Shown here: positions 3,435 to 13,842 of the stretch, one piece after another
How the letters are laid out: each line of letters starts with the position of its first letter
Position numbering within the stretch: position 1 is the stretch's first letter
DNA from: Kiritimatiellia bacterium
GTDB taxonomy: Bacteria; Verrucomicrobiota; Kiritimatiellia; RFP12; UBA1067
DNA: 40,335 nt
NCBI GenBank assembly: GCA_017563185.1
Contig: JAFXIL010000125.1
Location: 1 to 40,335 of the forward strand
Direction of reading: 5' to 3'
Notes under the pieces: model-generated
Seen by the model: only the letters and a program-made list of their open reading frames with translations
What the model was told of the DNA's origin: nothing
Database searches by the model: none
Translations under genes and position numbers: made by a program

Positions 3435-3622
3435 GCCGCGCCGTGCACGGCCCTGCGCCGACCCTGGTAGGGTCGCGCGTCCCGCGCGACCGCCATATCG
3501 CTTCCCGCCACGTGGTAGGGCGGTCGCGGGGCGACCGCCGCCACACCCCGCCAATGCACCGACAACGCCCCGTCCGCCACGCGGCGAAACACAACGCGGC
3601 GATGGGTGCGACAGGGCGCGAA
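3435..3622 (+). repeat. Long direct repeat, copy 1 (contains two palindromic modules)
   Basis: Starts GCCGCGCCGTGCACGG and ends near GGCGCGAA; copy 2 is at 4959-5144 in the same orientation. The first ~105 bases are nearly identical between copies; the remainder is clearly related but diverged. It contains module I (3466-3494, GGTAGGGTC-GCGCG-TCC-CGCGCGACC) and module II (3514-3539, GGTAGGGCGGTCG-cgggg-CGACCGCC), both near-perfect palindromes. These modules also occur inside the kinase and sigma-factor genes. The left boundary coincides with the truncation point of the integrase. Confidence 0.85.
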
Positions 3623-4958: not shown

Positions 4959-5144
4959 GCCGCGCCGTGCACGGCCCTGCGCCTACCCTGGTAGGGTCGC
5001 GCGTCCCGCGCGACCGCCGTATCGCTTCCCGCCACGTGGTAGGGCGGTCGCCCCGCGATCGCCGCTCCACCCCGCCCGCGCTTGGGCAACGCCTCATCCG
5101 CCACGACGAAACGCAGCGCGGCGATGGGTACGACATGGCGCGAA
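4959..5144 (+). repeat. Long direct repeat, copy 2
   Basis: Same orientation as copy 1 (3435-3622). Module I lies at 4990-5018 and module II at 5038-5063. In module II the right arm reads CGATCGCC rather than CGACCGCC, a change that still allows a G-U pair in RNA. The copy starts 16 bases after the ATPase stop codon, so the gene is enclosed almost exactly by the two copies. Confidence 0.85.
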
Positions 5145-5190
5145 CCCCATCGCCACTTTCAACTTTGGCGGAACAGCCACACCTCTGCTG

Positions 5191-5309
5191 ATTGTTGCCA
5201 ATGTGAAAATGTTGCCAATTCCAGTGTTGCCAATGGTCAGTTCCAATCCAACCACCATTTAATTGGGAATTGGAATTGGCACTGGCAACACTTCCACATT
5301 GGCAACATT
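5191..5309. mobile_element. Short TTGCCAAT inverted-repeat element (MITE-like), 119 bp
   Basis: The left end reads ATTGTTGCCAATGTGAAAAT and the right end, reverse complemented, reads AATGTTGCCAATGTGGAAGT, so the element has terminal inverted repeats of about 30 bp. The interior also holds ATTGGCA/TGCCAAT words. The same terminus recurs at 11356 (left-type) and 12209 (right-type). No ORF inside. A MITE-like or REP-like element is inferred from structure; no transposase is visible. Together with direct-repeat copy 2 it fills the gap between the ATPase and the next gene. Confidence 0.65.
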
Positions 5310-5346
5310 AAGCTGCACGCCTAAGGCGAACAGAAATACTATAGCG

Positions 5347-11153: not shown

Positions 11154-11866
11154 GTTTCACGGCAAAAGAAAGAGGGCGCGATTCCTTGCCGTGTTTCTGG
11201 TGAGGCTGTAGGATGCCCAGTAAGATCCACGGAAGAAAAAGCGCCCATAGAACAGGCGCATCCTCCACTCCGTTAAGGCTCCTACTGGTCGAAACTTCCT
11301 AGCCTTTATTCAATACTTCACGGTCCACGCCAAAATCTTACGCGGAGAGTTGAAGAATGTTGCCAATGTGGAAGTGTTGCCAGTTCCAGTGTTGCCAGTG
11401 GCCAATGTTCCTAAACTCATTGTTTGGATTTTACTGCTGAGACCTCCGGAAAGATCAGATAGCTAATTGCAAAACCTCTGCCATTGACGCACGTTCATTG
11501 CTTTCGCTGCTTGGAGTCTCGGAGTCCTGGAGGCATTGAGAGTTTTTGAAGATTCTTCTAAATCTCCCAAACTCCTAAACTCCCAGCAGCGAAAGCAAGA
11601 AAGGTCTTGCAACTGGTTCAATATGTTTCTACGTACTCCGTGTCGGCGGGCGTAATTCACCGCCGAGCCTTCTGATGATTGGAAACAACTATTTAAAACA
11701 ACTTGCCTTTGGCGCACGGGCGCGGGGCCTTGCGGCTGCTTCGCAGTTCGCGCTTCGCGCTCACCCAACCTGATCGCTTCGCGACAGGCGCATCAACTCG
11801 CCCGTGCCACTCGGTTAATCTAAAACGATGTAATCATATCAAATTTCTTGTGAAAACAGATAAGAA

Positions 11867-12011: not shown

Positions 12012-12208
12012 ATTAAGGCCGAGGCGGCCTTGCCACATCATGCACATCTGTTTTGCAATTACCACACAGGAGAATAAAGCAGAAAATGAAACGGCATTCT
12101 TTCTCTGCACCCCTGCGTCTCTGCGTTAGGAAATACTTGTGTTCACAGAGTTTTAAGTTCAATTGGCAATTGGAATTGGCACTGGCAACACTTCCACATT
12201 GGCAACAT

Positions 12209-13222
12209 TCACCAGCCCGACCCGGGCAGCACGAGCACACCATTCGTCACGAATGGCCTGGACCGAATGGCGCCGCGGTCCGAAGCGGCAGGAGTGCCGC
12301 TTCCCCGAAATGCCAAAGCGGCCAACGCCAACACCGCAAGGAGCGCGCACACGACGAGAAGACGTCGCACAAGATGCCGATGGCGAATCGCCCTGACGAA
12401 ATGGGCTACGGAAGAATACCGCTGCGCGGGAATCGCGGCAGTGGCCCTGCGGACAATCCGCGCCCACGCCCCAGATGGTCTGCCGCCAAAGCACTCGTTG
12501 GCCAGCATGCCAAGCGCATAGACGTCCACCAACGGCGTGATCTCGCCGCCGTTCAGCTGCTCTGGCGCGGCATAGCGCGGCGTTCCCACGGCAACGGCCC
12601 TGCCATCGACGACGGAAAGAGCGCCGCCGGTTGGCCCGGCGGGGATAGTCCCCGTATCCTTGAGAAGGCCCAGATCGGTCAGAACCGGCATGCGGTCACG
12701 CGGGACGCGTGACCCTACCAGCGTGTGCGATCCTACCACACGCCAAAGGATGTTGCCGGGCTTGATGTCGCGGTGGACGAGTCCGAGCGAGTGCAGATGG
12801 CCAACACCATCCGCCACGCCCAGCAGAAACTCTGCCACATCGCCGTCGCGCGAAGGAAGATCGCACGACTCCAGCAGCTCCATCGCGTACCAGGGGCGTC
12901 CGTTCCATTCTCCCGAACCGAGAAACCGCGGAAAGGCGGGATGCGAGTTCTGGACAAGAAACCTGGTTTCGCGGAGAAAGCGGGCGCGCGCCGCAGCGTC
13001 GTGCGATGCGTTCTCGCCCGTTCGAGGAACATACACCTTGAGAGCAGCCGAAACGTCCAAGGCGTCGTTCACCACGCGATACACTTCGCCGCATCCGCCC
13101 TTCCCAAGAAACGCCGCGACGCGCCAGTCGTCGAACATCTCGCCGTCGGGAACCGATGCGCCGGTCGGCATCCGTCCATGCGCGGCAAGGAAGTCTTCTA
13201 TCTCATTCGCGCCGATGCTCAT
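12209..13222 (-). CDS. Membrane-anchored Ser/Thr protein kinase (Hanks type)
   Basis: A 337-aa eukaryotic-like kinase. P-loop GKGGCGEVY begins at Gly40; Lys62 (ALKVY) is the ATP-binding Lys; the catalytic loop is HRDIKPGN with Asp152 and Asn157. The metal-binding motif is DLG (Asp183), followed by the APE motif at 219-221. A basic juxtamembrane stretch precedes one transmembrane helix (about 287-305), leaving only ~32 residues outside. Residues about 161-178 (VVGSHTLVGSRVPRDR) are encoded by a palindromic repeat inserted between the catalytic loop and DLG. The TGA stop straddles the boundary of the TTGCCAAT element, so the extracytoplasmic part may have been cut short. The ATG overlaps the sigma-factor stop by four bases. 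Kinase-coupled ECF sigma factors are common in PVC bacteria, which suggests that the kinase acts on or with this sigma factor. Confidence 0.88.
   Translation of the reverse strand: MSIGANEIEDFLAAHGRMPTGASVPDGEMFDDWRVAAFLGKGGCGEVYRVVNDALDVSAALKVYVPRTGENASHDAAARARFLRETRFLVQNSHPAFPRFLGSGEWNGRPWYAMELLESCDLPSRDGDVAEFLLGVADGVGHLHSLGLVHRDIKPGNILWRVVGSHTLVGSRVPRDRMPVLTDLGLLKDTGTIPAGPTGGALSVVDGRAVAVGTPRYAAPEQLNGGEITPLVDVYALGMLANECFGGRPSGAWARIVRRATAAIPAQRYSSVAHFVRAIRHRHLVRRLLVVCALLAVLALAALAFRGSGTPAASDRGAIRSRPFVTNGVLVLPGSGW
12692..12737 (-). repeat. Palindromic repeat (module I) inside the kinase gene
   Basis: In gene orientation: GGTAGGATCGCACACGCT, then GGTAGGGTCACGCG-TCC-CGCGTGACCGC. Compared with the intergenic copies (GGTCGCGCG/CGCGCGACC), both arms changed in a complementary way (GGTCACGCG/CGCGTGACC), so the palindrome is preserved. 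It is read in frame without a stop. Confidence 0.85.
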
Positions 13223-13842
13223 TCCCCGTCCACCTTTTCAAGAGCCGCCACCAGCGAACGCAGGCTGACCATCATGCGGGACCTGATCTGGTCAACCGCG
13301 TTGCGCTTCATGCCAAACGCCGCCGCCACCTCTTCCGGCTTCTCGCCGTTCACCGCCACACGCAGAAACACCTGCCGGGTCTGCTGCCTGATGGACTCGT
13401 TGCCCAGGAGCTGCTGAAGCGCGATCTCGAGAATCGCTTCACGCCAAGACGACTCGTCGTCGGCCATCATGCCGGACGGCGGTCGCGGGGCGACCGCCCT
13501 ACCGTCGCGGCCACTCGAAACGCGCACCCCAACCGCGTCGGCAATCTCCGTCTGCCGCTTTTCCCTGTGGAGATGACGAAGCGCCTTGTTGCGGAGGATA
13601 CCGGTAAGGTAGTTGTGAAAATGTCCCTTCTCGTCCGGCACGTAGTGGTAGGATGGCAACGCCGCACACAGGGCGACGAGAGTTTCCTGGATTACGTCGT
13701 CCGCATCGATCGTAGGAAAACGTTCACGCAGAAAAGCCTCCATCATCGGACGATACCGCGCCACGAACTCGCTCCAACGGGCGTGATGCGAATCATGCGC
13801 AATCTCACGAAGCAGCGTTGTCGATGTCGTGGGAATATGCAT
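13219..13842 (-). CDS. ECF-type sigma-70 factor
   Basis: A 207-aa sigma factor. Region 2 covers about 20-95 (ARWSEFVARYRPMMEAFL, DADDVIQETLVALCAALPSYHY, FHNYLTGILRNKALRHLHR). Region 4 with its helix-turn-helix is at about 150-203 (RQVFLRVAVNGEKPEEVAAAFGMKRNAVDQIRSRM). The linker holds GRDGRAVAPRPP (about 112-122), encoded by an inserted palindromic repeat. The type, with a long helical region 2 and a following kinase gene, fits sigma factors expanded in Planctomycetes/Verrucomicrobia relatives. ATG 13842 lies 26 bp after the proA stop; no strong ribosome binding site is seen there. The stop overlaps the kinase start (ATGA). Target promoters unknown. Confidence 0.88.
   Translation of the reverse strand: MHIPTTSTTLLREIAHDSHHARWSEFVARYRPMMEAFLRERFPTIDADDVIQETLVALCAALPSYHYVPDEKGHFHNYLTGILRNKALRHLHREKRQTEIADAVGVRVSSGRDGRAVAPRPPSGMMADDESSWREAILEIALQQLLGNESIRQQTRQVFLRVAVNGEKPEEVAAAFGMKRNAVDQIRSRMMVSLRSLVAALEKVDGE
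13477..13503 (-). repeat. Palindromic repeat (module II) inside the sigma-factor gene
   Basis: In gene orientation GGTAGGGCGGTCGC-cccg-CGACCGCCG; 27 bp, exactly nine codons. Matches module II of the two intergenic direct repeats. It sits in the flexible linker between regions 2 and 4. Confidence 0.85.

Follow-up and report, generated by a model that had tools for sequence, protein, structure and literature searches.

GTAG-class REPs read in frame within a protein kinase gene and its sigma-factor partner in a rumen Kiritimatiellae lineage

We analysed a 40,335-nucleotide stretch of DNA (the window), namely contig C78 in a metagenome-assembled rumen Kiritimatiellae genome of 3.2 Mb (G000, the host genome). 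The closest named relatives of the host are Kiritimatiellae of the deer omasum and sheep rumen, and all genomes compared here are metagenome assemblies. The window contains a protein kinase gene and its operon partner, a sigma-factor gene, both of which carry palindromes in frame, as well as intergenic palindromes of the same kind:

12209-13222, minus strand: Ser/Thr protein kinase gene, 337 aa, bearing the insert (Pfam Pkinase, E 3.3e-21)
12282-12306, minus strand: palindrome of another REP class, GGGGAAGCGGCACTCCTGCCGCTTC, in frame at the C-terminus of the kinase, reading FRGSGTPAASD (assigned from copy counts)
12694-12718, minus strand: GTAG-class REP GTAGGGTCACGCGTCCCGCGTGACC, 25 nt, read in frame as VGSRVPRD(R), with 9 of 9 stem positions paired
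12720-12737, minus strand: truncated REP head GGTAGGATCGCACACGCT, 18 nt or six codons, upstream of the 25-nt hairpin (from the sequence)
13219-13842, minus strand: sigma-70 family factor gene, operon partner of the kinase gene, whose start it overlaps (Pfam Sigma70_r2, E 3.8e-10)
13478-13502, minus strand: GTAG-class REP in the sigma2-sigma4 linker, reading DGRAVAPRPPS (from the REP catalogue and linker comparison)
13509-13534, minus strand: degenerate REP GGTTGGGGTGCGCGTTTCGAGTGGCC, adjoining the intact linker copy; an intact GGTAGGGTCACGCGTCCCGCGTGACC stands there in genomes G042 and G060
3467-3491, plus strand: intergenic GTAG REP, TCGCGCG subfamily (from the sequence)
3515-3539, plus strand: intergenic GTAG REP, CGGTCGC subfamily (from the sequence)
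4991-5015, plus strand: intergenic GTAG REP, TCGCGCG subfamily (from the sequence)
5039-5063, plus strand: intergenic GTAG REP, CGGTCGC subfamily, one mismatch (from the sequence)

Other intergenic repeats, containing GTTGCCAATGTG / TTGGCAACATT, are found at 5190-5320, 11355-11404 and 12158-12219, and are unrelated to the REPs.

The kinase motifs HRDIKPGN, DLG and APEQ are all intact, and D152, N157, D183 and E85 are invariant among the 45 kinases compared. A first-pass annotation of the window had placed a palindrome in frame between HRDIKPGN and DLG, and its sequence, coordinates and frame proved correct; the insert follows NILWR and precedes PVLTDLG. Read along the minus strand, positions 12737-12692 consist of GGTAGGATCGCACACGCT followed by GGTAGGGTCACGCGTCCCGCGTGACCGC, with VVGSHTLVGSRVPRDRM as the in-frame translation. 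The insert lengthens the beta7-beta8 turn, as had been proposed, though by a net 14 residues (24 versus 10) rather than about 16. The AlphaFold model shows it as a coil of low confidence, flanked by strands 158-162 and 177-181, in keeping with its earlier assignment to a surface loop, and the rest of the kinase domain is modelled at high confidence (mean pLDDT 84.8). Folded as DNA, the REP has a free energy of -11.5 kcal/mol (z = -4.4) and its GTAG stays unpaired. The insert was found in three separately assembled genomes, and the truncated head GGTAGGATCGCACACGCT is retained in two relatives (94-95% identical). The GGGGAAGCGGCACTCCTGCCGCTTC palindrome at the C-terminus, which is found in L032 and L033 too, means that one kinase gene contains sequence from two REP classes. 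This palindrome, the sigma-factor copies and the re-use of the kinase loop by other REP classes (see below) go beyond the first-pass annotation.

Judged by its sequence, the kinase hairpin is a multi-copy GTAG-class REP whose usual location is intergenic. In the window, a perfect 9-bp stem with a 3-4-nt loop follows 5 of 181 GTAG sites, and none follows any of six control tetranucleotides. The two intergenic copies already noticed (TCGCGCG subfamily) were confirmed, and two more of the class (CGGTCGC subfamily) lie near them. There is also a genome-wide excess of copies, for which the first-pass annotation had proposed a search: a pattern that did not demand pairing (GGTAGGG-N8-CC-N7/8-CCGC) gave 47 copies in the host genome versus 1 for the reversed control. 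Of the 58 genomes of the family, 52 carry the class, and one relative has as many as 286 copies. We compiled a catalogue of 57 GTAG REPs from sites matching GGTAGGGYS and their surroundings, a rule that misses divergent heads and imposes the GTAGGG start by construction. Seven variable pairs covary in the 9-bp stems of the unique copies, a result that is partly circular since the copy finder itself required pairing. The repeats are single hairpins of 25-28 nt with alternative complementary stem subfamilies, and opposed dimers are frequent. They thus show an unpaired GTAG at one end, on the 5' side, a 6-9-bp stem with subfamilies and a high dispersed copy number, all of which characterize the GTAG class. 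A further trait, a RAYT gene flanked by the same REP, was not found among the Y1-transposase genes examined. A linked RAYT gene is frequent but not universal among REPs, and the GTAG class is assigned by its tag (Di Nocera et al. 2013, PMC3733652); the missing gene, therefore, weakens the claim of mobilisation and not that of class.

We compared the beta7-beta8 loop in the 84 related kinases whose motif could be read. The loop has 10-13 residues in 62 of them and 17-58 in the other 22, and 21 of these 22 long loops hold a palindrome (GTAG in 10, GGAG in 6 and GGGAC in 5). Orthologues L035, L037, L045 and L049 are without exactly the inserted segment, which was the outcome sought in the alignment suggested by the first-pass annotation. 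On a kinase tree built with the loop excluded, at least 14 class changes are needed, together with at least 8 gains or losses of a palindrome, 6 of them forced by strongly supported branches. L041 holds a GGAG palindrome and L039 a GTAG one, even though the two are 98% identical over the 150 nt 5' of the loop. A second shared site, the beta2-beta3 turn, holds GGAG palindromes in L042, L044 and L045, and GTAG palindromes in L054 and L058. Since related kinases hold different hairpins at the same spot, the kinase turn has been repeatedly reused. Different REP classes repeatedly re-use two kinase turns and one sigma linker, which we regard as the strongest new point of this work. The class swaps would fit insertion of each REP independently as well as replacement of one REP by another through recombination.

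In relatives, the sigma2-sigma4 linker contains either two intact REP copies or a dimer. In the degenerate linker REP of G000 the hairpin is gone (z +0.24, no better than shuffles). G000 and G042 differ at 20 positions over 620 nt, and 8 of these lie inside one linker REP. Such clustering exceeds ordinary drift and suggests that one copy was replaced by another in one lineage.

REPs in coding sequence are not confined to this operon. A codon-usage score, taken on both sides of each copy, places 22 of the 57 catalogued copies in 14 ORFs, though this count comes from heuristic ORF calls and a partial catalogue, and copies in a dimer are not independent of each other. The in-gene copies use five of the six frames (4, 6, 5, 5 and 2 copies), and the frame that reads TAG is never used among the 22, the pattern that blind insertion followed by removal of stop codons would produce. 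Several of the genes concerned are plainly real, with strong Pfam domains (GH127, GH123, alpha-L-rhamnosidase, NAGLU and a TPR protein). One GH123 glycosidase gene (L303:952-3999, contig C169 of G000) contains four GTAG REPs in frame, some of which are absent from relatives, and in both GH127 and GH123 orthologues the segment at the REP site is absent or of varying length. In the GH127 orthologues L331, L332 and L334, another repeated peptide, ETRNQKPETRNQKPETRN, lies in the loop that holds a REP dimer in G000, suggesting a further coding repeat type.

It is conceivable that the loop and linker sites are hotspots, where the transposase recognises a target motif in the DNA, and that structural tolerance does not decide the choice. 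Nearly all palindromes in the beta7-beta8 loop begin right after the NILWR codons (TGGCGN), in one frame, and this loop holds 15 of the 24 palindromes found in kinase genes, as a hotspot would predict. However, common descent of the first insertion also explains the shared start, and no obvious target is common to the sigma-factor, GH127, GH123 and beta2-beta3 sites; across the GTAG REP catalogue, the only trace of a shared insertion motif was a weak pyrimidine-G preceding GTAG. We consider a hotspot unlikely, although it deserves to be taken seriously, and favour structural tolerance.

Y1-transposase genes are present in 16 of 16 genomes of the genus. In the host, such a gene on contig C164 has nine flanking copies of GGGGAAGCG...CGCTTC, whose orientation alternates. 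This class, which includes the GGGGAAGCGGCACTCCTGCCGCTTC palindrome of the kinase C-terminus, has 38 copies in the genome versus 0 for the reversed control. Among 57 loci of the genus and family, no Y1-transposase gene was found flanked by GTAGGG REPs in the manner of a REPtron; the genes checked are flanked by other palindromes. Locus L087 has two GTAGGG palindromes within about 450 nt of a Y1-transposase gene, and was rejected as a GTAGGG-linked transposase, because this number is expected by chance at such a copy density. Since none of the 57 loci has a gene flanked by its own GTAGGG REPs, mobilisation of this class is proposed by analogy with studied REP transposases. Separately, at L079:1936-2531 (contig C146 of G000), a 60-nt tandem array of palindromic units continues in frame into the beginning of an ORF for a Y1 transposase.

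We think it very probable that the insert is a GTAG REP that is spread by a transposase, is tolerated at flexible sites where the frame stays open, decays, and is overwritten by other REPs. The REP is probably a non-autonomous element that moves in single-stranded form via a REP-associated Y1 (HUH) transposase. Insertion of the 25-28-nt hairpin, often as a dimer, would be blind and single-stranded, and nearly all insertions into genes would be lost; the survivors would be those that keep the frame open and fall in a flexible turn or linker. Surviving copies, presumably neutral, would be translated as short Gly/Arg/Pro-rich peptides. Once inherited, an insert would decay and at times be overwritten or joined by a later REP arriving in that position, and such overwriting or re-insertion would account for the different palindromes in close orthologues. 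A single gene family thus offers a natural series of empty sites, single copies, dimers, decayed copies and class swaps, through which the entry, persistence and exit of 'extragenic' repeats in coding sequence can be traced by phylogeny.

The kinase turns and the sigma linker might, alternatively, reflect an ongoing, selected exchange of REPs, in which swappable peptide cassettes diversify the sigma factor-kinase signalling pair; we regard this as improbable. We view no more favourably, and if anything slightly less so, the proposal that the hairpin is kept by selection for itself, whether as an mRNA or DNA structure or as the peptide VGSRVPRD. The first-pass annotation had noted that, relative to the intergenic copies, both arms of the kinase hairpin had changed together (GGTCACGCG/CGCGTGACC versus GGTCGCGCG/CGCGCGACC), and had argued that the hairpin itself is maintained. 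It is true that G000 and G042 keep an intact stem and G060 an almost intact one, and that palindromes recur at the same place across kinases. However, the identical 25-mer exists at three other places in the host genome (contigs C42, C106 and C161), so that the paired difference predates the insertion. The 25-mer also recurs repeatedly in genome G006, and the TCACGCG/CGCGTGA variant forms a multi-copy subfamily of its own. Compensatory evolution at the kinase locus was, therefore, rejected, and in the simplest reading this subfamily would have inserted into the kinase as such. Maintenance of the hairpin is further contradicted by the decayed first REP of the sigma linker in G000, by the palindrome class and peptide, which differ wholly between close orthologues, and by the many orthologues that have no palindrome. 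Covariation of hairpin arms between copies is, thus, no proof of selection at one copy. The preferred reading remains tolerated insertion of a pre-existing REP followed by turnover.

The insert had also been likened to the Rickettsia palindromic elements (RPE). As to behaviour the likeness stands: as with RPE, palindromes are in frame, multi-copy (22 copies in 14 ORFs here) and add short peptides in surface loops. As to family it does not, for the kinase repeat has a GTAG tag and a 9-bp stem, whereas RPE-4 and RPE-6 form a CGTC-tagged class (PMC3733652); the two are set apart by tag, as described. On this ground we rejected membership, and acquisition of an RPE by this lineage is barely credible; the repeat belongs with the GTAG-tagged REPs, which are known in genes of Verrucomicrobia (PMC3733652). 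A chance palindrome or an assembly artefact, for which nothing was found, is a negligible prospect given that three separately assembled genomes share the insert and that the genome count is 47 copies versus 1 for the control.

REPs of the GTAG class have already been described in genes, most abundantly in the verrucomicrobium Opitutus (Opitutus terrae), and two Xanthomonas species carry different REPs at nearly the same position in recB (Di Nocera et al. 2013, PMC3733652). We found no paper on REPs in Kiritimatiellae in the literature searched. The GGGGAAGCG class around the host Y1-transposase gene resembles REPtrons and BIMEs, in which a RAYT gene is flanked by its REPs, whereas no gene flanked in this way was found for the GTAGGG class. 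Like the described GTAG REPs, the repeats studied here have an unpaired GTAG end, a 6-9-bp stem, complementary subfamilies, dimers and a high copy number, and, as in O. terrae, many copies lie within genes of a verrucomicrobium. The present results extend coding REPs to a rumen lineage in which more than one-third of the catalogued copies look intragenic. Unlike the described GTAG REPs, whose in-gene copies hit mainly DNA repair genes, those of this rumen Kiritimatiellae lineage have stems of their own and lie in kinase, sigma-factor and glycosidase genes, and a single kinase turn is used again and again by three palindrome classes, which swap between close orthologues.
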